32,970 nt of DNA from Spartobacteria bacterium (GTDB lineage: Bacteria > Verrucomicrobiota > Kiritimatiellia > RZYC01). This document shows positions 4,206-25,637 of the stretch, in pieces (the stretch's first letter is position 1; the number at the start of each line of letters is the position of its first letter). The stretch lies in assembly GCA_009929845.1 (NCBI GenBank), contig RZZM01000015.1, forward strand, positions 1-32,970, written 5' to 3'. The translations under genes were made by a program, and so were the position numbers. The notes under the pieces were generated by a model that saw only the letters and a program-made list of their open reading frames with translations, was not told where the DNA came from and did not search any database.

Positions 4206-7200
4206 ATGAAAATTCTAGAGCTAAGATTCAAAAACTTAAATTCACTTTACGGGCATTGGTTTATTGACTTTACAGTGCCGGAATATGTGTCGGATGGCAT
4301 ATTTGCGTTGACGGGGCCGACTGGTGCGGGCAAATCAACGATCCTGGATGCGATTTGTCTGGCGTTGTACGGGATGACTCCCCGGTTGGGGAAAATAACA
4401 AAAAGCAGTAACGAGATTATGTCGCGGCAAACAGGCGAGTGTTTTGCGGAAGTTTTGTTTGAATCGCAGGCGGGCCGGTATCGTTGTTACTGGGCGCAGC
4501 ACAGGTCCCGGAAAAAGGCTGATGGTGAATTGCAGCATCCACGCCACGAAATATCCGAAGGTATTGGCGATGGTAAGATCATTGAGTCTCAGCTCAGGCG
4601 TGTCCTTGCCGTAATCGAAGAGAAAACCGGGATGGATTTTGAACGGTTTACCCGCTCGATGCTGCTTGCCCAGGGGGCTTTTGATACGTTTCTTAAAGCT
4701 GATGTGGAAGAGAAATCCAGGATCCTTGAGCAGATCACAGGGACAGAAATCTATACGGATATTTCAAAAGCCGTCCATGAACGATTACGTTCAGAAAAAG
4801 ACCAACTGAATGTCCTTCAGGCTGAAAAAGAAGGCCTGGTTTTGCTGGATGATGAGCGGGTTTCTGCTCTACAGCATGAACTTGATGAAAAAACGGGTGT
4901 CTTGACTGAAAAATCCGGTCAAAAGACTCAATTAGATGCCGCTTTTCAGTGGAGAACCGGTATTTCAAGGCTTCAAAAGGAGTTGGAAGCCCTGGAAAAG
5001 GAGATTTCAGCTACTGAGCTTGCCATCATCGACTTCGAACCGCGGCGGCTATTGCTACAAGGAGCGCGAAAAGCATCTGAACTGGATGGTGCTTTCGCCA
5101 CATTGACCGCCACACGTAAGCAGCAGTTTGACGACCGGCAGGCACTGAAAAAGCTGGAAACAGGACGTCCGGAATTGGAGCAGAAGCTTGAAACCGGAAA
5201 AGAGCAGTTGGCCCATGCTGAAAAAGCACTGTTGGATGCCAAAAACCGGCAGCATATCGAATCAGAAACCATCAAAAAGGTGCGGGTGCTCGATGAGCGG
5301 ATTGTGGATCAAAAAACGCATCTGCAAGGCCTGGAAAAGGAAAGTGAGGACAAACAGGCCGAATTGGCCGAAAATCAGCATAAAATGGCCAAAAATGAGC
5401 AAAAAATCGTCGAATTTGGGCGGAAAATGTCAGCAATTGATGATTTTTGTAAAAAACATGCCTGTGATGAGGTCTTAGTGGCGGAAAAATCAGGTATCGA
5501 GGCAGAATTGAAAAATCTGATGACATTGAGTACAGATGTTGATTCAGCGCAAAAAAAGGTGAATTCCTGCCAAAAATCACAAAAAAATGCCGAAAAATCG
5601 CAAAAAACAGCCGTGCAGTGCCTTGAAAAGGCCAAAATAGCCAAAAATGAGGCTAAAAAACAGAGAAATACGGATTCAACTGAGCTTGAGAAGGTTTTGA
5701 AGGGGCGTTTATTGCGGGAGTATCGCGCTGAGCATGAGGGTCTCATGCGCGAACGGGCGTATGTTCAAAAGATTACCAGCCTGGAAGAGGAACGGTCAAA
5801 ACTGGTGGCCGGTCAACCATGCCCGTTATGCGGGGCAACCGAACATCCGTTCGCGGATGGAACCGTGCCGCAACTTGATGATATGGACCGGAAAATCAAT
5901 GCCTTGTCCGCCCTGATCAAACAGGCGGAAAAAGGTGAAACAAAGGTGGCAGAAGTCGAAAAAGCATGCATTTCGGCCCAAAATCGAGCCGAAAATGCCG
6001 AAAAAGACCTCAAAAATGCAAATAAATCGCTTCTTGAGGTCCAAAAAGCGGTCGATGAGGCTGAAACGGCCTCAAAAAGCATCGCGGAGCGTTTTGAAAC
6101 CAATAAAGGCCATGTTCTTCAATTATTGCAGCCCATGGGTGTAGAAGCATTGCCCGATGATCTTGTGGCATTTTTCGAAGAACTGACCCAACGCGCAACT
6201 GCGTGGCAGGAACAACAGACCAAACGCGAAAACCTTGAAAAACAGCTTCATCAGGTGGAGTCAGATCACAAACAGCTCACCGGCATCATTCAGACACTCG
6301 AAACCGCTCAAAATGAGCGAAAAAACGTGCTGAAATCGAAAAATGATGCGTTGAATACCCTTTTTGAAGAGCGGAAGGGCCTTTTTGGTGAGAAGGATGT
6401 CGAAAAAGAGGAAAAACGCCTCTCAGAGGCTGTTTCAACGGCTGAAAAGGCCGAAAAATCACTCATGAACGAACTGCAGGCTTTAAATGAAAGCTATACG
6501 GCATTGAAAACCGGAATTTTGAACCTGCAGCAGGACATGGCCGAACGGGCAGCACCGTTGGAAGCACAGGAACAGGCTTTCCTGCTGGACCTGCAAAAGC
6601 TCGATTTCAAAGATGAAGAAGCCTTTAAAACTGCTCGTTTGCCCGTCGATGACCGCACCGCCCTGGAACAGGAGGAAAAAAGCCTGGAAGCCCGTCGGGC
6701 GGATGTTGTCGGACGCCAAAAAGATCGTCGGGAAAAATTAACTGTTGAAACAGAAAAACGGCTTACTGAGCAGTCCTTGGAAGAACTGCAACAGGAAATA
6801 GAAGGTTTCTCGGTTGTATTAAAAGAACTGGGGGAAAAGATCGGTGGATTGAAGCAGCGCCTGGCAGATGACGCCGATGCAAAAAACCGATTCGCGGAAA
6901 AACAGCAGATGATTGAAAAGCAGAAAAGGGAATTTCAGCGGTGGAGTCGACTGCATGAATTGATTGGCTCCAGTGATGGCAAGAAATACCGGAACTTTGC
7001 GCAAGGGCTGACCTTCGAATTGATGGTCTCCCACGCCAACCGCCAGCTTGAAAGCATGAGCGACCGTTACCTGTTGATTCGCGACGACAAAGAACCCCTT
7101 GAACTCAACGTGGTCGACAACTACCAGGCCGGAGAAATCCGATCCACCCGCAACCTTTCCGGGGGCGAAAGTTTCATTGTCAGCCTATCGCTGGCCCTGG

Positions 7201-8893: not shown

Positions 8894-9021
8894 ATCCCCT
8901 TTGTTGCCATGGTGCTCTACACCGTCTTGTGACTAATCATACGTGAAACACTTCAGATATGTGTCATGTAATTAAGTGATTGGGTCCTATTGTTATTGCC
9001 TTAATAAGAGTCTTCTTTATC

Positions 9022-10452
9022 ATGCTTACGATGAACAGGGAACTACACAACCTGATTGTACTTGGCGAAGGCTTCTCGACGGAGTTCAAGCGTTCCGGCA
9101 CGAGTAATCTTGGGCGTGAGCTGTGTGCATTTGCGAATGCGATGGGGGGAACGATTTTAATCGGGGTGAGTGACAAAGGGGTGATTGTTGGTGTCAGAGA
9201 CGCAAATCGATTGAAGTCAGAAGTGCAGTCGTTAGCCCGTTCTATTGATCCGCCACTGGTCGTTGATATTGAGCTGGTAGATCAGGTGCTGGTGGTTGAT
9301 GTGCCCGCCCAAAACAGCAAGCCGTATTCCTTTGCCGGCAAATTCTATATTCGCGAAGGAGCCTCATCGCAGCAGTTGACGCGCAATGAAATCCGGGAAT
9401 TCTTCTTCAAGGAAGGCGTCATTCATTTCGATGAAATGAAGAATGACTGGTACAACCTGGAAAAGGACTTAACAGATTCGCTTTATCAGCGGTTTGCGAA
9501 ACGCGCCAAGCTTCCCGATGGTATGGATAAAATGCAAGTGCTGGAGAATCTGAACCTGATACGTAATGGCAGTATGACCAATGCGGGAGCCTGGTTGCTG
9601 GCAGAAAATATCATGAAGTTCAATAGTGCCGGAAACGTCTCCTGTGCGCTTTTTCAGGGCACCACGAAAACGCACATTCTGGATCGAAAAGACTATGACG
9701 GGGATGTTTTTTCCATGATCCAGGATGCCGTTGCCTACATCATGTCCAAGATTAACACAGCGCTGATCATCAAACACGTAAAACGTGAAGAACGCCCCGA
9801 ATTGCCTGAGGAAGCGATGCGCGAAGTCGTGGTTAATGCCTTTGCCCACCGCGACTACCGGAGCACAGCCAATGTGCAGGTCTACGTCTTTAAGGATCGC
9901 GTTGAAATTGTGAACCCCGGGGGACTGCCAGCGGGAATGACGCCGGAGTTACTGGGGAAGAAAAGCATCCCCCGTAATCCATTGCTGTTCAGCATGCTTT
10001 ACCGAATGGATGCTGTTGAGCATGTGGGGTCGGGCTGGAAACGAATCAGGAAACTGTGCGTTACTGCCGGTGTGGATGCTCCCGTTGTTGAAATCGATGA
10101 AAGCTGGTTCACGGTAAGGTTCAGGCGTTCTGTTGAACGAGTTGACAAGGGGTCCCAGTCAGTCACCCCACCAGTCACCCCACCAGTCACCCCACCAGTC
10201 AACGAGTGTGTTGCTAGACTGCTCATGTTGTTATCTGATGAAGGTGAACTGGGAAACGCTGGCATTAGAGATGCGTTGTCGCTTAAGGATAGGCAGCATT
10301 TGCGTGAAACTTATATTGCTCCAGCGCTAAACGCTGGATTAATCGAATACACCATCCCTGAGAAACCGACCAGTCGCCTGCAGAAATACCGTTTAACGGA
10401 GAAGGGGCGTCAGCTCTTACAAACCATGCAGGAGAAAAAAGCGCATGACTAA
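9022..10452 (+). CDS. AlbA_2 (Schlafen-like) / RecG-like ATP-binding protein with C-terminal winged-helix region
   Basis: LIVLGEGFSTEFKRS...LCAFANAMGGTILIGVSDKGVIVG (AlbA_2), REVVVNAFAHRDYRS and VEIVNPGGLPAGM motifs, C-terminal wHTH-like segment. Track ORF begins at 8980; 9022 or 9031 is the likelier start. Confidence 0.87.
   Translation: MLTMNRELHNLIVLGEGFSTEFKRSGTSNLGRELCAFANAMGGTILIGVSDKGVIVGVRDANRLKSEVQSLARSIDPPLVVDIELVDQVLVVDVPAQNSKPYSFAGKFYIREGASSQQLTRNEIREFFFKEGVIHFDEMKNDWYNLEKDLTDSLYQRFAKRAKLPDGMDKMQVLENLNLIRNGSMTNAGAWLLAENIMKFNSAGNVSCALFQGTTKTHILDRKDYDGDVFSMIQDAVAYIMSKINTALIIKHVKREERPELPEEAMREVVVNAFAHRDYRSTANVQVYVFKDRVEIVNPGGLPAGMTPELLGKKSIPRNPLLFSMLYRMDAVEHVGSGWKRIRKLCVTAGVDAPVVEIDESWFTVRFRRSVERVDKGSQSVTPPVTPPVTPPVNECVARLLMLLSDEGELGNAGIRDALSLKDRQHLRETYIAPALNAGLIEYTIPEKPTSRLQKYRLTEKGRQLLQTMQEKKAHD
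10161..10200 (+). repeat. In-frame 12-bp tandem repeat (AGTCACCCCACC x3 + partial)
   Basis: 10161-10172, 10173-10184, 10185-10196, then AGTC. Encodes VTPPVTPPVTPPV. Confidence 0.95.
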
Positions 10453-13400
10453 ACCGTCCAAGCCTTCAGAACATATACCCCGTGTGGGGATGGTGGCGAC
10501 GGTGCGGAACCGGCGGGGTGTTTTGAGTGGTGTTCAACCACATGATGGGCCAACCGGGGCCATGCATGTGGTGGATATCGAGTATAATGACGGGGAAACG
10601 CCTGGCGAAGAGCGTTTGATCTGGGAGTGTGAACCCCATGCGCGACTGTTACCGCCCAGTGCGTTGCCTGATCCATCCGCATCTGATCCGATGCGGCGGG
10701 AAGATTTACTGGCTTTGCAGCGGGCTTGTCGCTGGCTGGCTAACCGGCCGTATGTCGATCCTGACGGCAATGGGCCGCTGGATCGTTTGCCGGTTATCTC
10801 TCCTTTTCATGGAGGGGTTGAGGTTGAGGATTATCAACTGGTTCCTCTACTGAAGGCCTTGCGGATGCCGCGGGTTTCGTTGCTGATTGCTGATGATGTC
10901 GGTCTGGGTAAAACCATTGAGGCGGGACTTATACTGAGCGAGCTGCTGTTGCGCCGCCGGGTTCGGCGGGTGCTCATCATGACCCCGGCGCCGTTACGTA
11001 TCCAGTGGCGCGATGAACTCTGGTCGAAATTTTCACTGCCCTTTGAAATCGTGGACAGGCCGGCCACCTTGCATCTGCGCAGGCAGTTGGGGATGGACGC
11101 CAATCCCTGGCGCAGTTTTTCGCGTATTGTAACGAGTTATCATTACCTGAAACAACCAGATGTGCTGGAATCTTTTCTTTCCGCCTGCCGTGCCGAAACC
11201 TCGGATGCTTTATTGCCCTGGGATTTACTGATTGTTGACGAGGTGCACAACCTGACCCCGGCGCCCTTTGGGGAGGAAAGTGAACTCTGTCGTATGCTGC
11301 GCCGGGTGGCGCCGTTGTTTGAACATCGACTTTTCCTGACCGCCACACCGCATAACGGGCATACCCGGTCTTTTTCCGGCCTGCTGGAATTACTCGATCC
11401 CGTACGATTCAGTCAAACCGAGGAATTTAAACCGGCGGAACGCGCACGAATCCAGGATGTGCTTGTGCGCCGATTGAAACGTGAAATCAACCAGGCTGAT
11501 ACCGTCCAGCGCTTTTCCGAGCGGCACCCCCCGCAGGCATTACTGTTAGAGCGCGATGCCGCGGAAAAAGTTCTTTCTGATGCCTTTGCGGTTTTCCGGG
11601 AACGAATACGGGCCTTGATTGCGGATGGCGCAAAACGCCGTCGTCTGGCCGGGGCTTTTGCTGTTGAGATACTCGGGAAACGCTTGCTTTCCTGTCCGGT
11701 GGCGTTTGCGGACAGTTGGTGGCGTTGCCGGGAAGGGTTAGCGCAGGATGCGGCTGATGACCGTGAAGTGTTGACGGCCTGTAGAGGGCTGGATGACGAC
11801 CTGGATGACGACCTGGAAACAGAAAGCCGGACCCGCGTGGCTTCGAAAACCATCGGGGCCTGGCTTAAACCTTTTGCCGATGAACTCAGCACGGAAATGG
11901 CGGCATTGAATAGCGCGCTTTCCGGTCTTGATCTCGGACCGGATGCGCTGGATGCACCTGTGCCATGCGCGGATGCCCGTTTTGATGCCCTGATAGAATT
12001 GATTGAAACCCGGCTTTGGCGAGATGGTTCATGGCGGGAGGATGAACGCTTGGTGGTCTTTACGGAGTATAAGACCACCCTGGATTACCTTTTGCAGCGT
12101 ATGCGGGAGCACTGGTGCGGAGATGAGAATCGCATGTTGTGTCTGTATGGAGGGATGGATGATACACAGCGCGAGGATATTAAGGCGGCCTTTAACGATC
12201 CGGCTCATCCTGTACGCATTCTCCTTGGCACCGATGCGGCTGCGGAAGGATTAAACCTTCAACAAACCGCACGCTATCTTTTGCATTACGACGTGCCCTG
12301 GAATCCGGCCCGTCTTGAACAGCGCAACGGCCGCCTGGATCGGCATGGCCAGGCCCGTGATGTTACGGTATTCCATTTTGTCAGCCCCGACGATCAGGAC
12401 CTGGCCTTTCTCGACCTGGTTGTGCGCAAGGTGGATACCATTCGCGAAGATCTGGGCGCCACCGCCGAGGTATTTGATGAAATTACGTACCGGCGGCTGG
12501 TCGAAGGGGAAGATTTTGATCATATCCGGGCCGACCTGGACCGCCGGGTCGCTGCGGCGAGTGGGCGCGCGGACACGCCGCGTGATGACCGCACGCGTAC
12601 CGTTGAACCGGAAGTGGTCCATCCGCTGGATGCCGTTGCCGCTGAAATCGACTACAACGCGGAAACGGTTCGAGATACACTCGAAGCAGCCATGGCCGTT
12701 GGTGTTGGACATCCGCGGCTATCCGAACCCGAAACCGATGGGTGTTGCCGGATACTCAGTCCACACCCGCCATCCTGGAGTGCCGTTATTGATGATGCCG
12801 TTCGCCTGTCCGGCCGTGGAGAACAACAGGGGCCGCTGCCCAGGCTGGCCTTTGATGCCCGGGCACTCCTGTGTAAAATCGGAGAGCGGCGTGTTTTTCG
12901 TCCCCGCGCGGACACCCTTTTGCTGCATTTGAGCCATCCCCTCATGCAGCGTGCGCTGAGTACACTGAGCCGCTTGCGTTTCCCGGGCAGCGGGTCCATC
13001 GAGGTTTCACGGTGGACCGCGCTTCATGCGCCTGTAGCTGATGGTGCGATAGCTGAACTGCATCTTACCGTGGAAGAACTGGCCGTGAATGATTTACGCG
13101 AAACGTTTCATCACTGGGTCCGTACGGTATGCATCCCGGTTTATGATGACGGGCTGGGGGATGCGCTGCCGCACAGGCCGGCACGCATGTTGCAACAGGA
13201 TGCGCGGAAAGCTGTGGCGGATGAACAGTTGGAGCGTGCACGGGACTTGTGGATTGATTATGCCCCTGATGTACGGACTCGACTCAAAGGTTTTGCCGAA
13301 GAGTTGACCGTGCAGTTACGCGAGCAAATCAATATGGATCGTCAACAGGCTGTAAACAATGAAAATGAACGGTACCAGAGCCGACAGGGGGAGATTTCCG

Positions 13401-13702
13401 CCCTGATTGAAAACAGCACACTGGTCCGTCTTGAACGGGAACTCGATGGGTTGCGGCATGCACGTCAGCAGGGACTCCTGTTTGACCAGAACCGTGTCTT
13501 TGACGAACTGGACCGCGATATCAATCTTAAAGAAGACGAACTGAAACGCCGCCGCCAGCACTACGGGGAACTGCGCGATCAGCTTGCCCGTGAACGTGAG
13601 CGCATACTCAAGCATCTCATTCCTGCACGCTATACCATGCGGGGGAATGCCCAGGTCATGCCGGTTTCTGTTGAAATCATCCTGCCGGAGGTGTCCGTAT
13701 GA
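10445..13702 (+). CDS. drmD: SNF2/HepA-type helicase, DISARM DrmD-like
   Basis: LLIADDVGLGKTIEAGLIL, LLIVDEVHNL, FLTATPHNG, LLGTDAAAEGLNLQQTARYLLHYDVPWNPARLEQRNGRLDRHGQ. Overlaps the preceding gene by 8 bp and the methyltransferase by 4 bp. Confidence 0.85.
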   Translation: MTKPSKPSEHIPRVGMVATVRNRRGVLSGVQPHDGPTGAMHVVDIEYNDGETPGEERLIWECEPHARLLPPSALPDPSASDPMRREDLLALQRACRWLANRPYVDPDGNGPLDRLPVISPFHGGVEVEDYQLVPLLKALRMPRVSLLIADDVGLGKTIEAGLILSELLLRRRVRRVLIMTPAPLRIQWRDELWSKFSLPFEIVDRPATLHLRRQLGMDANPWRSFSRIVTSYHYLKQPDVLESFLSACRAETSDALLPWDLLIVDEVHNLTPAPFGEESELCRMLRRVAPLFEHRLFLTATPHNGHTRSFSGLLELLDPVRFSQTEEFKPAERARIQDVLVRRLKREINQADTVQRFSERHPPQALLLERDAAEKVLSDAFAVFRERIRALIADGAKRRRLAGAFAVEILGKRLLSCPVAFADSWWRCREGLAQDAADDREVLTACRGLDDDLDDDLETESRTRVASKTIGAWLKPFADELSTEMAALNSALSGLDLGPDALDAPVPCADARFDALIELIETRLWRDGSWREDERLVVFTEYKTTLDYLLQRMREHWCGDENRMLCLYGGMDDTQREDIKAAFNDPAHPVRILLGTDAAAEGLNLQQTARYLLHYDVPWNPARLEQRNGRLDRHGQARDVTVFHFVSPDDQDLAFLDLVVRKVDTIREDLGATAEVFDEITYRRLVEGEDFDHIRADLDRRVAAASGRADTPRDDRTRTVEPEVVHPLDAVAAEIDYNAETVRDTLEAAMAVGVGHPRLSEPETDGCCRILSPHPPSWSAVIDDAVRLSGRGEQQGPLPRLAFDARALLCKIGERRVFRPRADTLLLHLSHPLMQRALSTLSRLRFPGSGSIEVSRWTALHAPVADGAIAELHLTVEELAVNDLRETFHHWVRTVCIPVYDDGLGDALPHRPARMLQQDARKAVADEQLERARDLWIDYAPDVRTRLKGFAEELTVQLREQINMDRQQAVNNENERYQSRQGEISALIENSTLVRLERELDGLRHARQQGLLFDQNRVFDELDRDINLKEDELKRRRQHYGELRDQLARERERILKHLIPARYTMRGNAQVMPVSVEIILPEVSV

Positions 13703-16700
13703 ATGAGTTGCATCAAGATTGGTGGGAAAGTCCGAGGCATTTCGGTTTGTTGCTGAACCTTTCGCAGGCGCGTCATATCGAGCAGGAGTATTCATCGGAA
13801 GAGCTGCCGGTATATCGCGTAGACCGATTACGACGGGAGATGCAGCGCTTTGAATCCGGCCAATGTGATGCCGGCCCCTGGGTGGCATGGGTGCTGGATA
13901 ATATTTGCGGGTTCAACAGCATACTGGGTTCAAAATGGAAACGCGGGTCGGACGTGCCGGTTGAATTCAGCCGCGTTCTGCTCACCGGTGAGAGTTTTCA
14001 TCCCAGGCAGCTTTGGCGGGGCCCATGCGGTGCTGCACTGCCGGTATTCATCGAGAAGCATTTCCGCGTAGGCATTGGTCGCGGAAGACGCACACTCAGC
14101 CAGGTGCATGAATGGCTGCGTTCCGCTGAGCAACCCTTTGCCCTGTTAACGAACGGTATGCAGTGGCGCCTGGTGTATGCCGGACCGGATTACGAGGCCG
14201 CCTGTGAGTGGGATGCGGCTCAGTGGTTTACTGAAGGGCAACCGGGTGTTGCCCTGGCATCCCTGCGCCAACTCCTGCAGCCTGCGCTTTTTGTTCCTGC
14301 AGGCGAACATGAACCCGCACCGCTTGAGCAGGCCGTATCGGCCAGTCGCAAAGGACAGTCCGAGTTGTCCGCCGGGTTGGGGTCCCGTGTGCGTGAGGCG
14401 GTGGAAGTGCTGGTTCATGCCCATGGCGACGCGTTACGGCAGGCCGGACTGGACGCGCATGGCGCCGATATTTACCGGGCCGCCGCAAGAACCATCATGC
14501 GCATGGTGGTTATTCTCTTTGCTGAAAGCCGTGACCTGCTGCCCTGCAGCCAGCCGCTGTACTACGACAACTACAGCCTTCAGGGGTTGTTTGAACAGCT
14601 CCAGCGGCTTGCCCTGCGCGGGCGGGGACGTCTTGCGCACCGGTACGGTGCATGGCCGCGCATCCTGGCCCTGTTTCGGCTGGTCCATGACGGTTCACAT
14701 CATGAAGCGCTGACCATTCAGCGCTATGGTGGAACCCTCTTTGCCCCCGGCGCTCCCGCGGATGCCGACCCGATGCGCCACGCACTCGGTATTTTTGAGG
14801 CCGCCTGTTTTGATACGCAGCAGGCCGTCATGCCTGATGCCGACGTGCATCGCATTCTTGAACTGCTCACCCGCACCCGTGTACGCATCCGCCAGGGGCG
14901 GGGCAGCACCTCCGTGCTGATGCCGGTCGATTTTTCCGAACTCTCCTCCGAGTATATCGGTATCCTGTACGAGGGATTGCTGGACTATGAACTGCGCACC
15001 GCCTCCGCGGACGACCCGGTTTTGTTCCTTGCCGTAGGGAAGGAGCCCGCTCTGCCGCTGTCGCGACTTGAGGCCATGAGCGATCAGGACATAAAAACCC
15101 TTTTCGAGAAACTTAAAAAAGATAAGGACGACAAAGAGGAGGAATCCGAAGAGGAAGAACAGCCGGAATCCGGGGAGGAAGAGGAATCCGAAGAATTGAT
15201 CGAGGATGAAGCCGTTGATGCTGCCGACGATGATTTGGATGAGGCCCGTCTGGCTCGTGAAAAGGCCTATACCTGGGCACACCGTGCCTGCCAGGCAGCC
15301 GGGTTGGCGCCAAAAATCCGCGACAGGATTACACCTGAAAAACGAATGGAACACGACCGGAAGACCGCCGCTGCTGCACGCGGGTTGATTCGGAAAATAG
15401 TATTGCCCGGCGGATGGTATCTTGTGCGCTGGGGCGGCACACGCAAGGGCAAAGGAAGTTTCTACACACGCCCCCAGTTGGTCGAACCTACGGTCCGTCG
15501 CACCCTGGAGCCGTTAGTGCGCGAAGAGGATCGCTCCCGGTTGCCTGAGGAGATCCTGGCGCTGAAGGTCTGTGATCCCGCCTGCGGGTCCGGTTCTTTT
15601 CTCGTCGGAGCCCTGCGCTTTATGACCGATGCCCTGTATCGCTCCCTGCATGAACACAAACGCTTTAATGGCGAGCATGACCGTACGTTCCTGCACCTGT
15701 TCGGTGATAAATCGGAAATGCGGATAAACGGCGAGGGGGCGCTCTCGAACGAATACATCAATGCCCGTCCCGAAGATGATGATTTCGAGGAACGGTTGAA
15801 GGCTCAGTTGCGGCGTCATATCGTCGAACGCTGCCTGTACGGGGTCGATCTTGATCCGCTGGCCGTGGAACTGGCGCGCTTGTCCCTCTGGATTGAAACC
15901 ATGCACCGGGATCTGCCATTTTCATTCCTGGATCATAAAATCAAGTGCGGCAATGCCCTGATCGGTTGCTGGTTTGACCGCTTTCGACATTACCCGGCCA
16001 TGGCCTGGAAAAACCGCGATGGCGGCGACAGCACCCATACCAATGGGGTTCACTATGAGCAGAAAGAACGTACAAAGGCCCTGAAGGCTTTTGACAACAA
16101 CGTACTCAAGGCGGATATCGAACAGGCCATTGATCGGCATGCTTACGAGCAGTCCATGAACCGCACCCGGGCCGCCCAGGTGCATGACGGGGCGCTGAAA
16201 GCCCTGCGCGAGCTGCATGCGCTGCCGGTACATGATGCCGAAGGACGGGCCGAGGCTTACCATCAGTTGCAGGAAGATAAAGACTGGCAAACCCTGAAAA
16301 CCGCCTTTGATGCCTGGTGTGCCTGCTGGTTCTGGCCGGTCGATCATATCGATCAGGCTCCGTTGCCCACAACCTTTGCCTGTCTGCCGGAACAAACTCG
16401 TTCCCTGGTCCGGGAACTTGCCGCCCGAAAACGCTTTTTCCACTGGGAACTGGAATTTCCCGATGCCTTTGACCGGCCCGACAGCGGCTTTAATGCGATT
16501 CTTGGGAATCCGCCATGGGATGTTGCTAAACCCAGTTCAAAAGAGTTTTTCTCCAATCTGGACCCCTTGTATCGCACTTATGGCAAACAGGAGGCGCTGA
16601 AGACGCAAACAGAACTCTTTGAAAAGCCCGACATGGAATCGGAATGGCTGGATTACCAGGGCGATTTCAAGGCGCAGTCGCACTTTGCCAAATATGCCGC

Positions 16701-18981
16701 CCGGCCTTTTGGTGATCCCCAGCGTAACGATACAAGTGCAGATCGGTTCAGTATTGTAAGGGGAAAACGGAACAACGAACTGCACACCCGGTGGCGATCC
16801 GAACGCTCCGGTGATAAAGGCTATGCCGACCCCCAACACGCCTTTCAGCACCAGGGATCGGCGGATATCAACCTGTACAAACTCTTTCTCGAACAATCGC
16901 ACGTGCTGCTGCGTCCCGGAGGGCGACTTGGTTTTATTGTGCCGTCCGGGCTTTACTCCGATCATGGATCCGGTGCCCTGCGCGAACTCTTTTTGGATCA
17001 CTGCCGGTGGGAATGGCTGTTCGGATTCGAGAACCGGGAGAAGGTTTTTGATATTGATGGTCGCTTCAAATTCAACCCCGTCATCATCCGGAAGGGTGGT
17101 CGAACCGAAGCGATCCAGGCCGCCTTTATGCGGCGGGACCTGACCGACTGGGCACGGGCCGAGACCCTTGTTGTGCCCTACAGCCGGGAACAGGTCGACC
17201 GGTTCTCTCCGCAATCCCAAGCCATCCTCGAAATCCAGTCCGAACGTGATCTTGAGATACTGGAAAAGATCTATGCCAACTCCGTGCTGCTCGGTGACCA
17301 GGGACCCGATGGATGGGGGATAAAGTATTCAACAGAATTTCATATGACCAATGACTCCAACCTCTTTCCACCCCGTCCCAAGTGGGAAGAGAAGGGGTAT
17401 CGTCCCGACGAGTACAGCCGCTGGCTCAAAGGCAACTGGCAGCCGGTTTCCAACCTTTGGAAAACACTGGAGGTCGATTTTCCAACCATTGGAAAAAACG
17501 ACGCGGAAATTTCCAATGATTGGAAAAAAGCCGAAAAAAATTCCCAACCACTTGTCCCGCCTTCAGCGGGATTGGAAAACCCGGATCGACCCCGCCTGCG
17601 CATCGCCCAGCCGCCCTACGACCAGATCCCCATACCCCGCGCCGATATCCCCCCCGGCATCATCCTCTCACGCGAAGCCGATGCCTATATCCGGGAAGAC
17701 GAGATCGAAGATGTCGCCCTGCCGCTCTACGAAGGACGTATGATCGGCCAGTTTGATTTCAGTCAGAAAGGCTGGGTCTCCGGTAAAGGTCGCACCGCCG
17801 TCTGGCGCGATATCCCATGGGCGCACAAGGTTATTGAACCCCAGTACCTGATGGCACAGGAGACCTTCCAGAAAGAGTCACTGAAAAAATACCTCGACCA
17901 ATACAAAAAACGCTATGGCGCCGATGCCGCCGAAGCGGAGGAAGGACGACTATGCAGTCCTGATGAATTTGCTGGGTGGTGGTTAAACTGGAATATAAAA
18001 TGTTCTATTATGGATGTTACATCATCCACGAATACTCGAACAACCATAGGTACAGTATCTTTGTGTGTCCCGCATGGACATAAAACTCCCGTTATGAAGT
18101 TGTGTCTTGGCGAGCATGTTTATAGTACAATCGGTCTGGTTGCTGTGCTGAATTCGTTTATATTTGATTGGTTGATTCGGCTTAGACTAAGCGGAAATTC
18201 TCTTATTTGGGCAGCTTTAGCCGAAACAGCTTGTTTAAGAAAACAACAAGTTCTGAACAGTTATCTTATAGAATCAGCGAAAAGGACTGCAGTTACCAGT
18301 CAATTCTTTCCGAGTTTAGAGACATTACATAATCGTTATTCTAACAAGTTATTCTGGGCTTTAACACATTCAGAGCAAATTAGAAATCGCGTTATTCAAG
18401 ACGTTTTAATAGCTGAACATTTTAAACTCAGTTACATTGATCTCAACGACATCCTTATAGACTGTGATCATCCTTCAGGCAATGAAGTTGATAAAGATCC
18501 CAAAGGCTTCTGGCGTGTAGACAAAGACAAGGACCCTGAGTTACGGCACACGGTATTGACGCTGGTGGCGTTTCATGACCTGCAGGAAAAGATACAAGCG
18601 TGCGGCGGTGATCGGGATGCGGGGATACAGGCGTTCATGGAGCAGAACGACGGTGAAGGCTGGATGCTGCCGGAGACATTACGGCTGGCCGATTACGGAT
18701 TGGGGCATGATGAGCGTGCGCAGGAACATCAACCGGTAGCCTCCCGGCTGGGCCCGCGCTTCCTCGACTGGCAACTGGAACAATCCGCCGAGGAATCCTG
18801 GCGCGAATGCGAACTGCATGCGAGAAACCTGCTGGGCAAAGAAGGCTTCAAGGCTTTGAAAAATCAGAACACCGCGGGAAAAGAGACTTCGTCGATGAAG
18901 GTAAAGGAAGACCAGATAGAGTATGCGCCGGCTGGTAAGAAAATGACGCAGGGAACCTTATTTGACGAAGCGGGAGCATAA
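13699..18981 (+). CDS. drmMI: Large N6-adenine DNA methyltransferase, DISARM DrmMI/PglX-like
   Basis: Motif I DPACGSGSFLVGAL, motif IV ILGNPPWDVAKP, LYGVDLDPLAVELARLSLWIETM. 1760 aa, with an acidic linker around 15110-15245. Confidence 0.85.
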   Translation: MNELHQDWWESPRHFGLLLNLSQARHIEQEYSSEELPVYRVDRLRREMQRFESGQCDAGPWVAWVLDNICGFNSILGSKWKRGSDVPVEFSRVLLTGESFHPRQLWRGPCGAALPVFIEKHFRVGIGRGRRTLSQVHEWLRSAEQPFALLTNGMQWRLVYAGPDYEAACEWDAAQWFTEGQPGVALASLRQLLQPALFVPAGEHEPAPLEQAVSASRKGQSELSAGLGSRVREAVEVLVHAHGDALRQAGLDAHGADIYRAAARTIMRMVVILFAESRDLLPCSQPLYYDNYSLQGLFEQLQRLALRGRGRLAHRYGAWPRILALFRLVHDGSHHEALTIQRYGGTLFAPGAPADADPMRHALGIFEAACFDTQQAVMPDADVHRILELLTRTRVRIRQGRGSTSVLMPVDFSELSSEYIGILYEGLLDYELRTASADDPVLFLAVGKEPALPLSRLEAMSDQDIKTLFEKLKKDKDDKEEESEEEEQPESGEEEESEELIEDEAVDAADDDLDEARLAREKAYTWAHRACQAAGLAPKIRDRITPEKRMEHDRKTAAAARGLIRKIVLPGGWYLVRWGGTRKGKGSFYTRPQLVEPTVRRTLEPLVREEDRSRLPEEILALKVCDPACGSGSFLVGALRFMTDALYRSLHEHKRFNGEHDRTFLHLFGDKSEMRINGEGALSNEYINARPEDDDFEERLKAQLRRHIVERCLYGVDLDPLAVELARLSLWIETMHRDLPFSFLDHKIKCGNALIGCWFDRFRHYPAMAWKNRDGGDSTHTNGVHYEQKERTKALKAFDNNVLKADIEQAIDRHAYEQSMNRTRAAQVHDGALKALRELHALPVHDAEGRAEAYHQLQEDKDWQTLKTAFDAWCACWFWPVDHIDQAPLPTTFACLPEQTRSLVRELAARKRFFHWELEFPDAFDRPDSGFNAILGNPPWDVAKPSSKEFFSNLDPLYRTYGKQEALKTQTELFEKPDMESEWLDYQGDFKAQSHFAKYAARPFGDPQRNDTSADRFSIVRGKRNNELHTRWRSERSGDKGYADPQHAFQHQGSADINLYKLFLEQSHVLLRPGGRLGFIVPSGLYSDHGSGALRELFLDHCRWEWLFGFENREKVFDIDGRFKFNPVIIRKGGRTEAIQAAFMRRDLTDWARAETLVVPYSREQVDRFSPQSQAILEIQSERDLEILEKIYANSVLLGDQGPDGWGIKYSTEFHMTNDSNLFPPRPKWEEKGYRPDEYSRWLKGNWQPVSNLWKTLEVDFPTIGKNDAEISNDWKKAEKNSQPLVPPSAGLENPDRPRLRIAQPPYDQIPIPRADIPPGIILSREADAYIREDEIEDVALPLYEGRMIGQFDFSQKGWVSGKGRTAVWRDIPWAHKVIEPQYLMAQETFQKESLKKYLDQYKKRYGADAAEAEEGRLCSPDEFAGWWLNWNIKCSIMDVTSSTNTRTTIGTVSLCVPHGHKTPVMKLCLGEHVYSTIGLVAVLNSFIFDWLIRLRLSGNSLIWAALAETACLRKQQVLNSYLIESAKRTAVTSQFFPSLETLHNRYSNKLFWALTHSEQIRNRVIQDVLIAEHFKLSYIDLNDILIDCDHPSGNEVDKDPKGFWRVDKDKDPELRHTVLTLVAFHDLQEKIQACGGDRDAGIQAFMEQNDGEGWMLPETLRLADYGLGHDERAQEHQPVASRLGPRFLDWQLEQSAEESWRECELHARNLLGKEGFKALKNQNTAGKETSSMKVKEDQIEYAPAGKKMTQGTLFDEAGA
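17447..17526 (+). repeat. Three-copy palindrome array inside the methyltransferase ORF
   Basis: TTTCCAA-CCT-TTGGAAA (17447-17463), TTTTCCAA-CCA-TTGGAAAA (17478-17496), TTTCCAA-TGA-TTGGAAA (17510-17526). Confidence 0.9.
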
Positions 18982-18989
18982 AATGATAA

Positions 18990-19020
18990 TGCACAATAAA
19001 GCCTGCATATTTATTGTGCA
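18990..19020. terminator. Perfect 11-bp inverted repeat after the methyltransferase (terminator-like or operator)
   Basis: TGCACAATAAA-N9-TTTATTGTGCA, starting 9 nt after the methyltransferase stop. Confidence 0.45.
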
Positions 19021-19042
19021 GAAATGGTTTATCCAGGATGCA

Positions 19043-19080
19043 TTGACGATGCCTGACAGAGTGTGTATAGTTGGTACACA
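19043..19080 (+). promoter_or_regulatory. Sigma70-like promoter with overlapping palindromic operator for vapBC
   Basis: TTGACG (19043-19048) - 17 bp - TATAGT (19066-19071). TGTGTA-N7-TACACA at 19062-19080 overlaps the -10. Confidence 0.6.
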
Positions 19081-19095
19081 TAAACAAGGTGTATT

Positions 19096-19287
19096 ATGAG
19101 AACAAATGTAGTGATAGATGATCAATTAATGAATCGTGCATTGCGGTTCAGTGGGTGCCGCACAAAGCGAGCGGCCATCGAATCGGGCTTGCGTCTGCTG
19201 GTGCAGGTAAGTAGCCAGAAGAAACTCAGATCGCTCCGCGGGAAAGTTACCTGGGAGGGGGATCTGGAGGAAATGAGGAGGGATTAG
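19096..19287 (+). CDS. vapB: VapB-type antitoxin
   Basis: RTNVVIDDQLMNRALRFSGCRTKRAAIESGLRLLV ribbon-helix-helix-like fold; 63 aa, directly upstream of a PIN-domain ORF. Confidence 0.88.
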   Translation: MRTNVVIDDQLMNRALRFSGCRTKRAAIESGLRLLVQVSSQKKLRSLRGKVTWEGDLEEMRRD

Positions 19288-19288
19288 A

Positions 19289-19678
19289 ATGGTTGTGGTC
19301 GATACGTCCGCGTGGATTGAGTATTTTCGGGAAGGGATTCCCGCTGTGGCTGATAAGGTGGATCTATGCCTGGAACAGGACCTGGTGTGTATTGGTGATC
19401 TGGTTTATTGCGAAGTTATGCAGGGGATTCGTTCAGCCAGACAGCAAAAAGAGGTGTCAGCTTTGTTGTTGTCATTGCCACGCTTCAATATGGTTGGCTT
19501 CGAGATGGCTGAGAAGTCAGCGGCAAATTACAGGTCTTTACGACAAAAAGGGGTAACGATTCGAAAAACCATTGATGTATTGATTGGGACATTCTGCATA
19601 GAGCATGGATTGCCATTGATTCATAATGACCGTGATTTTGATGGAATGGAGAAACACCTGGGGCTTGAAATTGTTTAA
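19289..19678 (+). CDS. vapC: VapC-type PIN-domain toxin
   Basis: MVVVDTSAWIEYFR, conserved acidic residues, ending HNDRDFDGM; 129 aa. Confidence 0.92.
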   Translation: MVVVDTSAWIEYFREGIPAVADKVDLCLEQDLVCIGDLVYCEVMQGIRSARQQKEVSALLLSLPRFNMVGFEMAEKSAANYRSLRQKGVTIRKTIDVLIGTFCIEHGLPLIHNDRDFDGMEKHLGLEIV

Positions 19679-19697
19679 CTACTGAGGGAACTGAAAA

Positions 19698-22600
19698 ATG
19701 GCCATAAATCCCATCGTCTATACAGAAAATGTCGTACGGAGTTTTCTTCGCTACCAACTTACAACGTATGCATTTGCTGACGAACGACTGAATACACGTA
19801 TGCGTGAATTATTGTCGCTGGATGAAACGCGCGAAACCCCGCTGTTAAAGGGGCCGTACATCAGTTTGTCACGGGCCTTTCGCTCTGGAGTTTCCGTTGA
19901 ACAACTCGTGTCGGATGGCGTGCTTCATGAGCACCTGCGGCAGTTAATTCCCTTTCCACATGTGTACGGCCACCAGGAAGAGGCTATTCGCGCGATTCAA
20001 CAGGGGCGTTCCACGCTGATTTCGACGGGTACGGGTTCGGGTAAGTCGGAATGCTTCCTGTATCCCATTATCAGCCGTTGTTTGGAACTGCGGGATGTCG
20101 GCGCCGAACCGGGGATCTGTGCGGTTATTGTTTATCCCATGAATGCCTTGGCCGAGGACCAGTTGCAGCGGTTGCGTGAACTGCTGGCGGGTTCGGGCAT
20201 TTCGTTTGGCATGTACGTGGGCAAGACACCGGAACGTGAAGCGGATGTCAGCGGGGTTCGTATGTATCCTGTCGATTCTCATGCTGCCTACATGGCCCAA
20301 CTTGCAGAAGTGCGTGCCTCCAAAGAGGGGAAAGGGGTATCGGTGCATCCTTCGGATGAGGTTTGCAGCCGGGAGATGATGCGCAAGGCAGGCCATCAAC
20401 CCCGCATCCTGTTGACCAATGTCAAGCAGTTGGAACTGCTTCTGACCCGGCAGCGTGATATTGAACTGTTTGATCATGCCCGCCTCGATTACCTGGTGTT
20501 TGACGAAGCGCATACCTTTACCGGCGCCCAGGGGGCCGAGTCCGCCTGCCTGGTCCGGCGATTGCGGAGCTTTTGCGGTCGTTCGCCTGAGGACACGGTT
20601 TGTGTGGCCACGTCGGCAACCATTGTTGACAGTCGTAATACAGCGGCTTCGCGTGAGTTTGCTGCGCGATTTTTCGGTGCTCCGGTTGAGGATATCACTA
20701 CGGTTACCGAGACCTATGAACCACAGACCTGGGCATCCGAACGTACGGTGCCAACGGCGCCTGATGACCCTGCGGCTGCGTTGGACGCCGCCCGTATGGC
20801 CGTGGATGCGGAAAATCCAGGAGAAGCTGTTTGTGCGTTCTGGAGTCGGTTTGTAGGGACATCCTCTGCGATTAGCCCGGATCACTGGGAAGAGGATCTG
20901 TATGTTGTTCTCTCGCGGAATGAATTACTGTGGCAGGCCGCTGATTTGCTGGCGACACCACGTGATCTGGCTGGTTTGCTGGACGATTTGGTCGAACGGG
21001 TCGGCCGTCCGGTCAGTGAAGAAGAATTGATGATGTGGCTGGTACTCGGGACAGCGGCACGTTATGAGAACAGGCCATTGGTACGCCCGGTGGTTCATGC
21101 CTTTGTGCGGGGTGTTCCCGGCGCGATGGTTTCTTTCACGGAAGATGGCACGCCTCAGTTGCATTTATCGGCCGAGGAGGATACGGATGATGACGCGGAT
21201 ACGCTGAAATTAAGAGTCAGCACCTGTACCACCTGTGGACAGCACTATTTCGAGCATTATCTGGCCGACTTCGAATATACAGGGTCGGTGCCGGGCGGTG
21301 GTCAGGCCGATGGTGAAGTTACCTATTGGGAGACGCAGGATGTGGCCCAGGGAGGGCAACGCGTATTATTGGTGGATCGGCTTATTTCATCGGATGATAA
21401 TGACGAGGAAGAAAGCAGTCGGCATCTGTCGGCTATACATATCTGTCGTAGATGCGGGGCTGCGCATTCCGATGACCAATCACGGTGCCTGGCTTGTGGT
21501 GTGGCGGGTGAGTTAATTCCTTTGTACGTGGTGGTGCAGCAAGCCGATCATGAGGGCGCCCTGACTCGTTGTGTATGCTGTGGTGCGAACGGCCGTACAT
21601 TGGCCGGCCGTTTCCGTGAACCGGCCAAACCCGTTCGGGCTACGAATGTAGCGGACGTGCATGTATTGGCACAGGATATGGTCCACCATGCGGAACGAAA
21701 GCGTCTGCTGGTTTTTGCGGACAATCGCCAGGATGCCGCATTTCAGGCAGGTTGGATGCGGGACCACTCACGTCGTTTCCGCCTTCGTGAACTGATGGCG
21801 GAAAAACTCGCGGAAGGGCCTGTCTCAATCGGTGATATGGCCTATTATCTGGATACCTTGATGGAGGCGGATGATGCGCTTTCCAGGGCCCTGCTGCCGG
21901 AAGTCTGGGCCATACATCCATCAAAAGAAGCAGCGGGAACAGCCCATAGGGAGGATCGACGGCATGCATTGCGTATCCAGGTGCTGCTGGAAATCACGCA
22001 GTCGGCCAACCAGCAAATTGGCCTGGAGCCCTGGGGACGTCTTAAAGTTAATTATGTGGGTCTTGATGAAACGACCTCGTTCATACAGAACTGGGCTCGC
22101 GAGCTTCGCTTGCCCGCGGATGAACTGGCCGGAGGAATAGCGGCGTTGCTGGATCATCACCGTCGCCGTAAAATACTGCACTACAGCGCTGATGACATTT
22201 TTTCGTCATTCCAGGGCGACGGAAATCGTGATTTACTGAGTGGATATATCCCCGAGCTGAAGGGCATTCCGCAGGGTGTTAAGTTCAGCCGGGACGCCAA
22301 TGATGATCAAAATCGTGTTAAACAGTGGGTGTCGCAGGGCCGTCGAACTATGCTTTCAGATTTAGCTTTGAAATGGGGAGTGCCTTCAGAGCGAACCCAT
22401 GACTTCCTGCAAGAACTATGGGGCTTCTTAACGGACCCAGACAGAGCCCTTCTCGTGCCGGTAACCCTTAAAGGTACAAGAGGGGGCGTGTTGCCCAATA
22501 CGCATGGTTCACACCAGGTGAATGGCGATAATATTGTTCTTACGCTGAACCAGACAGGATTCTTTCGCTGCAAAACCTGTCGTCGGCGCATGGCGGCCCG

Positions 22601-25600
22601 TAGGGTTCCGCTTAACAGGTGCCTTGCCTGGAACTGTAATGGCGAAATGGAGCATTGTCCGGAAGATGCGGATAACTATGATCTATCATTGATTGATCGC
22701 GAATACACCATGTTGCGTCCGCGTGAGCATACGGCCATGGTTCCCAATGCGGAGCGTGAGAATCTGGAACAGATATTTAAAGGGCAGAGCGATTCAATCA
22801 ATACATTAGTGTGCACGCAGACATTAGAGTTGGGAGTCGATATTGGTGCGTTGGATGCGGTCTTGATGCGCAATGTCCCTCCACTGCCTGCCAATTACTG
22901 GCAGCGTGTGGGCCGTGCCGGGCGCCGGCATCGAATGGCGGTTGATCTGACCTATTGTCGCCAGGTCAGTCATGACCGGGCCTATTTTGCTGATCCCCCC
23001 AAAATGCTGGATGGGCGTGTAGAACCTCCAAGCTTCAATTTGTCGAATCCGCTCATGGTGGCAAAGCATGTACACGCTGCTGTGATTACTCAGTTGTTTA
23101 AACTGGGACGTGATAACAGTCCTTTATTGGAAGCCGACCGTATGGAGGTGCGTGAAGTTTTGCGTGATGTGTTACCTGCGATGGTCTGTTCGTACCTGTT
23201 TCATGAGAATGGTCAGATCCGTACGGAACCTAAAGATATCACCGCACTGAATACAATTATCACAAAACACCGCGAACATATCGAGTACGCGATCGTATGT
23301 GCCTTTCGCCAGGGCTGGCCGGAAGCGGATGGCGATGTGGTTTCGGGAGAAGCGTTGTCCGGTCATGTGCTGGGCATGACAGAAGCACTTGAAGCGGTAC
23401 TTAAGCGCTTGTTTCGCCGGTTGCGCTGGGCTATGGAACAAATGCGGCAGCTTAATGTGAAACAAGAGAATCTGGGCTCGCTGCCGGAGGAGGACCAGGC
23501 TTTTCATCGTCGCTGCAATCACCTGGTGCAACGACTTAAAGGGGTTGGCAGGCGGCGCCGGCACGAGGCGGAAGGATATGATGATTCGTTTACCTACGGC
23601 GTATTGGCTGCCGAGGGTTTTCTGCCGGGATACGGCCTTGAAACAGGGTCGGTAAGGGGTATGGCTGAAGTGCCTTCTTTTGTGCGTGGATTGGGAGATT
23701 TTGATTTGCCACGGCCTCCAGCCATCGCCTTGCGGGAGTATGTGCCCGGAAATCTTATCTATGCCAATGGGCAGCGTTTTGTCCCTCGGCGGTATGCCTT
23801 TGATGCTGAAGAACGCAGTGAGCGCGTAGTGTTGGAAGTCAGCCGGGAACGAGAAGCTGTTCGTCAGATTCAGGGTAGTGCGACCAGTGACCCCGCCGCC
23901 GATATACTGACCAGCATTCCAATTTGTGATGTGACATTGATGCATCAGTCACGAATCTCCGATGAAGAGGAAAACCGTTTTCAGATGGGCGTTTGCATTT
24001 ATGGCCGAGATCTGGGACAGCATCATGGCGGTCAAGTATTCACATGGGGTGATTGTGAATTGCAACTGAGAAAAGCCATGCATGTACAACTGGTGAATGT
24101 AGGGGCGCGGTTGGGTATAGCTCGTGATAATCATTTGGGCTATCCGGTATGTCAGACATGCGGACAAAGCATCTCACCCTTTTCTTCACAGCGCCAACAG
24201 GAAGTATTCCGGGAAAACCATCTTGAGCGTTGTAATTGCCGTCCGGATGGCGTGGCCTTTCACGCCAACTTGACGGCCGATGCCCTGCTGTTACCTGACT
24301 GCAGCAACCGTATAGAAGCCTATTCGCTTTTCGAGGGGCTGCGGTTCGGAGCGACGCAGGTATTGGATATGGACCTTGAAGACTTGCAGGTTATCGTACT
24401 GGGGCGTTTTGATTCCGATGAGTGTGATGCTGTATTGTATGATCCTATGCCGGGCGGTTCTGGCTTGCTGGAGCAATTACTCGAACGGTTTTCCGAGGTT
24501 GTCACGGCTATGGAAGAGATAGCGCAAGCATGTCCGGCCCAATGTGATACCAGTTGTATTGACTGTTTCCGTACGTATCGGAATGCCTTTTATCATGAAC
24601 ATCTTGACCGCAATATGATGATAGAGCGCATTCATGACTGTGGTTCCCGGCTGGGCGATCCGATGGATATTCCCCCACGACGGCCCGTTCACGAACCGGA
24701 GCAGAACGAACAACCGGTTAACGTTGCTGAACGTCGTTTGCAAGCTATGCTTGAGCGTGCTGGTTTTCCGCCAGGTGAGTGGCAGCAGCAAATTCGATTT
24801 AATGATCTGCCGCATACTATGAATTCAACGACGCCGGATGTGTCCTTCCATGATCCTGATGATCCAAACCTGCTCATTTTGATCTATCTGGATGGTCTTT
24901 CGGCGCATATCCATGGCCATGCGGCCACGCAGCAGCGTGACCGGCAGATTCGGGCGGATTTGCGTGCCCGTGGTCATGAAGTTATCGAAATAGCCGTCAG
25001 TGATATGGATGACCGTAACGTGATGTTGCGCCATTTTCGTAAACTGGCCCGTTACCTGTTAGGGCGTGATGACGCCCGGCGAGTTGGTGAAGATGTCGAT
25101 GATTGGTTTGGGGGAAATAACGACGACAATGTGGAGACGGATTTTGAACAGGAGCGGGAGGATAATAACATCCTGCCATTTGAATGGGTTGACCCCGACC
25201 CCTCAGAATATGGGATAACATGCGTGCCCGTCTATTCGTTACAAGCTGTCGCCGGAACATTCGGAGAATTCCAGCACCCGGAACCCGAGGGATGGGCCCG
25301 TTTTGACACATCGCGCAACTTCAATAACAAAATGTTTATTGCGCAGGTGTCAGGCCATTCTATGGAGCCAACCATTCCTGATGGTAGTTGGTGCCTGTTT
25401 ACCAGTGAAGTAGGAGGCCCCCGCGATAACCGTATTCTCATACTGCAACATCGAGATATCTCTGATCCTGAAACCGGTGGCTGTTATACAATCAAAAAAT
25501 ACAAGCGACTACCCCAAGGTGACGGGGAAAGAGGCGGGAGAATTACTTTACAACCTAATAATCCAGATTATGAACCAATTATAATTGATAGTGGTGAGGC

Positions 25601-25637
25601 GTTAAGCGTTATTGGCGAATTACTTGAAATTCTGTAA
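19698..25637 (+). CDS. Giant DEAH helicase with DUF1998/MZB region, PD-(D/E)XK-like segment and C-terminal S24 (LexA/UmuD-like) domain; DruE/DrmA-like
   Basis: STGTGSGKSECFLYPII, LVFDEAHTF, VATSAT, TLELGVDIGALDAVLMRNVPPLPANYWQRVGRAGRR; YDPMPGGSGLLEQL...CPAQCDTSCIDCFRTYRN (DUF1998/MZB); TTPDVSFHD...LIYLDG...RDRQIRADLRARGHEVIEI; C-terminal AVAGTFGE...SGHSMEPTIPDGS...YTIKKYKR. Confidence 0.88.
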   Translation: MAINPIVYTENVVRSFLRYQLTTYAFADERLNTRMRELLSLDETRETPLLKGPYISLSRAFRSGVSVEQLVSDGVLHEHLRQLIPFPHVYGHQEEAIRAIQQGRSTLISTGTGSGKSECFLYPIISRCLELRDVGAEPGICAVIVYPMNALAEDQLQRLRELLAGSGISFGMYVGKTPEREADVSGVRMYPVDSHAAYMAQLAEVRASKEGKGVSVHPSDEVCSREMMRKAGHQPRILLTNVKQLELLLTRQRDIELFDHARLDYLVFDEAHTFTGAQGAESACLVRRLRSFCGRSPEDTVCVATSATIVDSRNTAASREFAARFFGAPVEDITTVTETYEPQTWASERTVPTAPDDPAAALDAARMAVDAENPGEAVCAFWSRFVGTSSAISPDHWEEDLYVVLSRNELLWQAADLLATPRDLAGLLDDLVERVGRPVSEEELMMWLVLGTAARYENRPLVRPVVHAFVRGVPGAMVSFTEDGTPQLHLSAEEDTDDDADTLKLRVSTCTTCGQHYFEHYLADFEYTGSVPGGGQADGEVTYWETQDVAQGGQRVLLVDRLISSDDNDEEESSRHLSAIHICRRCGAAHSDDQSRCLACGVAGELIPLYVVVQQADHEGALTRCVCCGANGRTLAGRFREPAKPVRATNVADVHVLAQDMVHHAERKRLLVFADNRQDAAFQAGWMRDHSRRFRLRELMAEKLAEGPVSIGDMAYYLDTLMEADDALSRALLPEVWAIHPSKEAAGTAHREDRRHALRIQVLLEITQSANQQIGLEPWGRLKVNYVGLDETTSFIQNWARELRLPADELAGGIAALLDHHRRRKILHYSADDIFSSFQGDGNRDLLSGYIPELKGIPQGVKFSRDANDDQNRVKQWVSQGRRTMLSDLALKWGVPSERTHDFLQELWGFLTDPDRALLVPVTLKGTRGGVLPNTHGSHQVNGDNIVLTLNQTGFFRCKTCRRRMAARRVPLNRCLAWNCNGEMEHCPEDADNYDLSLIDREYTMLRPREHTAMVPNAERENLEQIFKGQSDSINTLVCTQTLELGVDIGALDAVLMRNVPPLPANYWQRVGRAGRRHRMAVDLTYCRQVSHDRAYFADPPKMLDGRVEPPSFNLSNPLMVAKHVHAAVITQLFKLGRDNSPLLEADRMEVREVLRDVLPAMVCSYLFHENGQIRTEPKDITALNTIITKHREHIEYAIVCAFRQGWPEADGDVVSGEALSGHVLGMTEALEAVLKRLFRRLRWAMEQMRQLNVKQENLGSLPEEDQAFHRRCNHLVQRLKGVGRRRRHEAEGYDDSFTYGVLAAEGFLPGYGLETGSVRGMAEVPSFVRGLGDFDLPRPPAIALREYVPGNLIYANGQRFVPRRYAFDAEERSERVVLEVSREREAVRQIQGSATSDPAADILTSIPICDVTLMHQSRISDEEENRFQMGVCIYGRDLGQHHGGQVFTWGDCELQLRKAMHVQLVNVGARLGIARDNHLGYPVCQTCGQSISPFSSQRQQEVFRENHLERCNCRPDGVAFHANLTADALLLPDCSNRIEAYSLFEGLRFGATQVLDMDLEDLQVIVLGRFDSDECDAVLYDPMPGGSGLLEQLLERFSEVVTAMEEIAQACPAQCDTSCIDCFRTYRNAFYHEHLDRNMMIERIHDCGSRLGDPMDIPPRRPVHEPEQNEQPVNVAERRLQAMLERAGFPPGEWQQQIRFNDLPHTMNSTTPDVSFHDPDDPNLLILIYLDGLSAHIHGHAATQQRDRQIRADLRARGHEVIEIAVSDMDDRNVMLRHFRKLARYLLGRDDARRVGEDVDDWFGGNNDDNVETDFEQEREDNNILPFEWVDPDPSEYGITCVPVYSLQAVAGTFGEFQHPEPEGWARFDTSRNFNNKMFIAQVSGHSMEPTIPDGSWCLFTSEVGGPRDNRILILQHRDISDPETGGCYTIKKYKRLPQGDGERGGRITLQPNNPDYEPIIIDSGEALSVIGELLEIL

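Follow-up and report, generated by a model that had tools for sequence, protein, structure and literature searches.

Most short palindromes dispersed through bacterial genomes have been put down to relics of transposons or to RNA hairpins. Rickettsia palindromic elements, to which a sequence-only reading of the locus described here had likened it, are units of roughly 100-150 bp that are copied whole. Other dispersed palindromes, such as the matS sites of MatP or the sites of Noc, belong to a dimeric protein and are scattered along the chromosome. The marks for DNA uptake and those of the Chi type are, as far as is known, short and occur singly. REP and BIME sequences are high-copy short palindromes, often paired or arrayed, that lie mostly in intergenic DNA downstream of genes and sometimes inside them, as set out by Di Nocera et al. 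(2013, PMC3733652). HIP1 of cyanobacteria is a highly iterated 8-mer palindrome connected with methyltransferases (PMC4390886).

The arrays we describe resemble each of these systems in part. Like Rickettsia palindromic elements, they can place a palindromic repeat in frame within a coding region (33 codons here relative to a homologue in genome G092), but they consist of a 19-bp site with variable spacers rather than a long copied unit with a conserved interior. They share with REP/BIME a location mostly between genes and near gene ends, and differ in lacking a foot and any tracking with Y1 transposases and in having helical-turn steps and independent half-sites. As with HIP1, the palindrome is clade-limited and highly iterated; unlike the 8-mer, the Kiritimatiellae arrays are tandem and helically phased. 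They are palindromic and dispersed on the chromosome as matS and Noc sites are, with a binder that is putative, but they are tandem and, in dense genomes, far more numerous. A search of open-licence papers returned nothing on this motif or on such repeats in Kiritimatiellae.

Results

A palindrome array inside a restriction-methyltransferase gene

The window, by which we mean the whole 32,970-nucleotide stretch analysed, carries three copies of a 19-bp palindrome with the consensus TTTTCCAANNNTTGGAAAA. Together they cover 82 bp; from one start to the next it is 32 bp and then 31 bp. Allowing up to three mismatches, the window holds 3 matches against 0.22 expected, and 0 of 100 shuffles reached 3, which upholds the earlier observation of three palindromes within the methyltransferase gene. 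The features of the locus are as follows.

13699..18981, + strand: host open reading frame, type IIG restriction enzyme-methyltransferase / DrmMI-like protein, 1760 aa
17446..17464, no strand: unit 1, GTTTCCAACCTTTGGAAAA, perfect 7-bp arms, right half over LWK codons shared with the homologue
17478..17496, no strand: unit 2, TTTTCCAACCATTGGAAAA, exact consensus, 32 bp past unit 1
17509..17527, no strand: unit 3, ATTTCCAATGATTGGAAAA, 31 bp past unit 2
17541..17579, no strand: apparent broken fourth unit, read partly by eye from the sequence; TTCCCAA left half (17541), CCCGC/GCGGG hairpin, ATTGGAAAA right half (17571-17579)
17500..17598, + strand: 33 codons with no counterpart in the G092 homologue; boundaries approximate, ~17465 to 17601 possible

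A half-site and a CCCGC/GCGGG hairpin had also been reported past the array, and both are there, the hairpin arms at 17556-17560 and 17566-17570. Together with TTCCCAA they look like a degraded fourth copy of the palindrome, in which the left half lies 30 bp past the left half of unit 3 and the right half 52 bp past that of unit 3. The array had further been described as in frame. The 1760-aa reading frame does stay open through it; with steps of 32 and 31 bp, however, unit 2 falls in another frame than units 1 and 3, and thus no peptide repeat is encoded. The gene itself sits in a defence island (window 8980-25637) that comprises a DrmD-like SNF2 helicase, the IIG/DrmMI-like enzyme and then a 1979-aa DruE-like helicase, with an SbcC/SbcD-like pair and a WYL regulator upstream.

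The best profile match of the host protein has a best stretch that stops at residue 1252, and the array starts at residue 1250. The best homologue, from G092 (family f25, an array-free lineage), is 60% identical and lacks 33 codons, residues ~1268-1300, and the second half of unit 1, read as LWKTL, aligns to a homologous LWKKL. Since these codons are missing in G092 while LWKTL has its counterpart there, most of the window array, compared with the closest homologue, appears to have been inserted in frame at the edge of a domain, and unit 1 would lie at least partly on ancestral sequence; this polarity is taken from a single close-enough homologue, with a deletion in G092 as the alternative. 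The view of a short palindromic element inserted into a coding region is thus borne out in part: the repeat is short, palindromic and dispersed, and the segment is mostly an insertion relative to G092, from which unit 1 is in part exempt. Of the outcomes named as speaking against that view, neither arose, since the best homologue is without most of the segment and the motif returns hundreds of times elsewhere in the genome.

The array recurs across much of Kiritimatiellae

A search of the own genome with the motif, one of the checks proposed for the sequence-only reading, returned 296 palindrome copies (up to 2 mismatches) and 0 for a reversed-pattern control. By the looser tandem pattern described below, this genome has 199 tandem pairs in 5.6 Mb, far sparser than in G008, the densest genome. 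Relatives carry 0 to 1355 copies (up to 1 mismatch), with copy number patchy between them. A looser tandem pattern found tandem copies in 95 of 346 Kiritimatiellae genomes and its control found 0 in each; the exact motif undercounts, and many genomes negative by it turned positive with the looser one. By the looser pattern, families f1, f13, f16, f17, f21 and f26 are filled with arrays, f7 also has array-bearing genomes, f2, f10, f18, f25 and f37 are without them and f31 is nearly so. Outside the class, 1 of 78 sampled genomes of other Verrucomicrobiota was positive, with 3 tandem copies. When public genomes were searched with the exact tandem pattern, the titles among the matches listed were those of Kiritimatiellae, Lentisphaerae or Verrucomicrobia metagenome-assembled genomes (MAGs), with a few entries named 'uncultured bacterium'. 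The genomes compared here are likewise MAGs. Across much of Kiritimatiellae, a genome carries the array in anything from tens to many hundreds of copies.

Half-site letters differ between array variants, with a switch between TTTTCCAA and TTTTCCAT. In G132 (family f26; L252, ~6591-6693), a variant motif, TTTTCCATNNNATGGAAAA, stands at unchanged 31 + 22 bp steps, suggesting that the site and its putative binder may change together.

Several related elements were seen alongside. One array-bearing contig among the matches listed, L108, has a Bacteroidales label and is possibly a mis-binned Kiritimatiellae contig. Three contigs filed as viral (L056, L057 and L059) carry the same arrays with the 31-bp step, and viruses or proviruses of these bacteria may also carry sites. 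Three lower-GC viral contigs (L053-L055) hold a pair that looks related, its step being 28 bp and its flanks conserved; it is probably unrelated to the arrays. Family f30 has a two-copy element (L320 in G155 and L323 in G113) whose step is 33 bp and whose spacer, which bears GCCGGC, is similar in the two genomes, in contrast to the unrelated spacers of G008.

Sites are helically phased and constrained by position

Arrays mostly hold 2-5 copies. Over all loci, adjacent copies lie 19-23 bp (n = 47), 28-33 bp (n = 451) or 41-42 bp (n = 5) apart, with a few distances larger, and the typical steps of ~22, 31/32 and 42 bp correspond to 2, 3 and 4 helical turns. Distances above 40 bp cluster at multiples of ~10.5 bp (R 0.85, p ~1e-5), some of which may equal sums of 31 with one lost unit. 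The sites of an array share one face of the helix, as would be expected of operator arrays.

What is conserved is the 19-bp symmetric site only, recurring at helical-turn intervals. The 12-13 nt spacers of G008 are unrelated, being no more similar within arrays (0.377) than between them (0.388), and their middle is GC-rich (78% vs 59% in intergenic DNA). Own-genome spacers are partly alike within arrays (0.55 vs 0.42), as are adjacent units, indicating that local tandem duplication contributes there. Where arrays of the own genome were aligned between loci, the best matches stay inside the arrays, and copying of whole arrays between loci was dropped for that reason. The analogy with Rickettsia palindromic elements breaks down at this point: the 100-150 bp copied unit is absent, G008 spacers are unrelated, half-sites are independent and the arrays are mostly intergenic. 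A link to RAYT/Y1 transposases was also dropped because counts and copies were uncorrelated: across 38 relatives, Y1_Tnp counts did not track palindrome copy number (a comparison at the level of counts). G002 (family f1) has 86 Y1-transposase matches, far above its neighbours. The frequencies of a GTAG/CGTC foot beside the palindrome were at or below background in the three genomes searched.

Within the stem, compensatory paired double changes occur at or below expectation and half-sites vary independently; among mismatches, G-U is roughly equal to A-C. When half-sites of phased units were folded together, the CC/GG core was changed in ~1%, the inner A/T positions in 3-11% and the outermost base in 30%. 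Changes were heterogeneous across the A/T positions (p 5e-9), and the transition/transversion spectrum differed by position (p 1e-9). Each half-site is under mirror-symmetric, position-specific constraint of the kind seen in a dimer operator, a pattern not to be expected if an inserted element were decaying neutrally. From these features we infer that a protein binds the palindromes, a reading they support well, and we consider it likely that the arrays serve a dimeric protein as tandem operators, bound in a manner that depends on phase and is probably cooperative.

Arrays lie beside transcription units and are evenly spaced in the densest genome

In G008 and G035, a simple gene finder places the majority of arrays between genes. 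Within codirectional gaps, 26 of 71 arrays begin 0-14 bp past the upstream stop codon, a preference that G008 and G035 show clearly and the other genomes do not. When sigma-70 promoters were scanned for stringently, 21 were aimed away from arrays with the -35 box within 50 bp and 1 was aimed into an array, at 50 bp; both the gene calls and the promoter calls are home-made. This placement after stops and before promoters could be mere tolerance. Arrays also occur between convergent genes, and 12 of the 77 multi-unit arrays of G008 lie deep in open reading frames. At the syntenic loci compared, G008 and G035 have the same layout; array positions mostly differ and some are common, and arrays come and go between these two genomes. 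Neighbouring genes are diverse, with no gene family recurring beside arrays in the sequence examined. An XRE gene adjoining an array in G012 was considered as the binder and rejected, as its distribution does not track the arrays.

We analysed spacing in G008 and G035, the two genomes with enough contiguous sequence, against nulls matched for gap class and location in open reading frames. The 116 intervals of G008 average 4.4 kb with a coefficient of variation (CV) of 0.58, compared with 0.88 ± 0.07 for the null, whose 1000 runs never gave less than 0.69. G035 has a CV of 0.77, its null being 0.84 ± 0.07, and one of 0.62 when a single 19-kb gap is dropped. Spacing is thus clearly more even than the matched null in G008 and at most weakly so in G035, where the result hinges on that gap. 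The array-free 19 kb (G035:C18, mostly L031) are a surface-polysaccharide cluster of low GC, as though arrays were missing from DNA gained recently.

Discussion

The best explanation, to which we give about an even chance, is that these are cooperative operator arrays for a putative dimeric protein, forming nucleoprotein nodes along the chromosome. Each 19-bp palindrome, TTTTCCAA-N3-TTGGAAAA, would be the site for one dimer of a sequence-specific DNA-binding protein, and neighbouring dimers, 2 or 3 turns apart on one helix face, would bind cooperatively. Hundreds of such arrays would yield nucleoprotein nodes that most likely organise or insulate the nucleoid between transcription units. The window array would be one node, having arisen within a large defence gene mostly via an insertion that kept the reading frame and was tolerated at the boundary of a domain. 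The regular G008 spacing, the phasing, the constraint on a symmetric site, the distribution over the class and the preferred placement, all of them computed, count for this explanation, and from them we infer both the cooperativity and the architectural role. Against it count the lack of a binder among the neighbours of arrays, an evenness that is clear only in G008, and the sparseness of the own genome.

The rivals grow less probable from a global regulator through a selfish repeat and an uptake or self mark to RNA hairpins. A global transcription regulator of the ordinary kind, whether activating or repressing, with operator arrays upstream of many promoters would account for arrays directly upstream of -35 boxes and for a palindrome constraint resembling that of a dimer operator. 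We regard it as unlikely, given the very many arrays beside diverse genes with no recurrent family, their presence between convergent genes and deep within open reading frames, the mostly unlike positions at syntenic G008 and G035 loci and the over-regular G008 spacing. The same over-regular spacing, together with unrelated G008 spacers, helical phasing and position-specific constraint, makes it quite improbable that the arrays are selfish palindromes of the REP/BIME or MITE type, copied by a transposase and tolerated after stops and occasionally in frame within genes. Such repeats would fit the patchy copy number among relatives, the in-frame insertion in the window gene and the placement after stops, which is that of REPs (PMC3733652); however, the GTAG/CGTC foot is absent and Y1 counts are off, with 1355 palindrome copies and 2 weak matches in G008 against 17 copies and 86 matches in G002.

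A self mark, for DNA uptake or Chi-like, would be kept by biased uptake or repair and so become abundant and evenly spread. G008 is indeed both dense and even, arrays occur on some viral contigs and unit 1 lies partly on what appears to be ancestral sequence, but tandem, helically phased arrays are left unexplained and many class members are sparse, and we find this reading very doubtful. Least probable, it seems, is that the arrays work as RNA hairpins which terminate transcripts or stabilise their 3' ends. Helical phasing is meaningless for RNA, compensatory changes and a G-U preference are both absent, the U tract is missing past the stem and an Rfam search matched RNase P and a tRNA only, leaving the arrays without a match; the predicted fold is modest for the window array (z -1.85) and strong for two others (z -6.0 and -6.9), and it is these folds and the after-stop placement in G008 and G035 that speak for RNA.

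Unlike most bacterial dispersed palindromes, the arrays bear features that speak for a bound protein, namely half-sites that vary independently, helical phasing and spacers that are unrelated. They point to a previously undescribed DNA-binding protein that would grip the chromosome at many places. We tentatively raise the further possibility of a new chromosome-organising system of Kiritimatiellae, in which a dedicated, co-evolving binder and up to several hundred phased operator arrays, set near-regularly between transcription units and in some genes, would divide the nucleoid into domains of a few kilobases. If the node explanation is confirmed, the arrays would make it possible to map chromosome-binding nodes by computation, from sequence, in a large class that is mostly uncultured, and the series of lineages in which they are dense, sparse or absent would allow a direct comparison of having and lacking such nodes.
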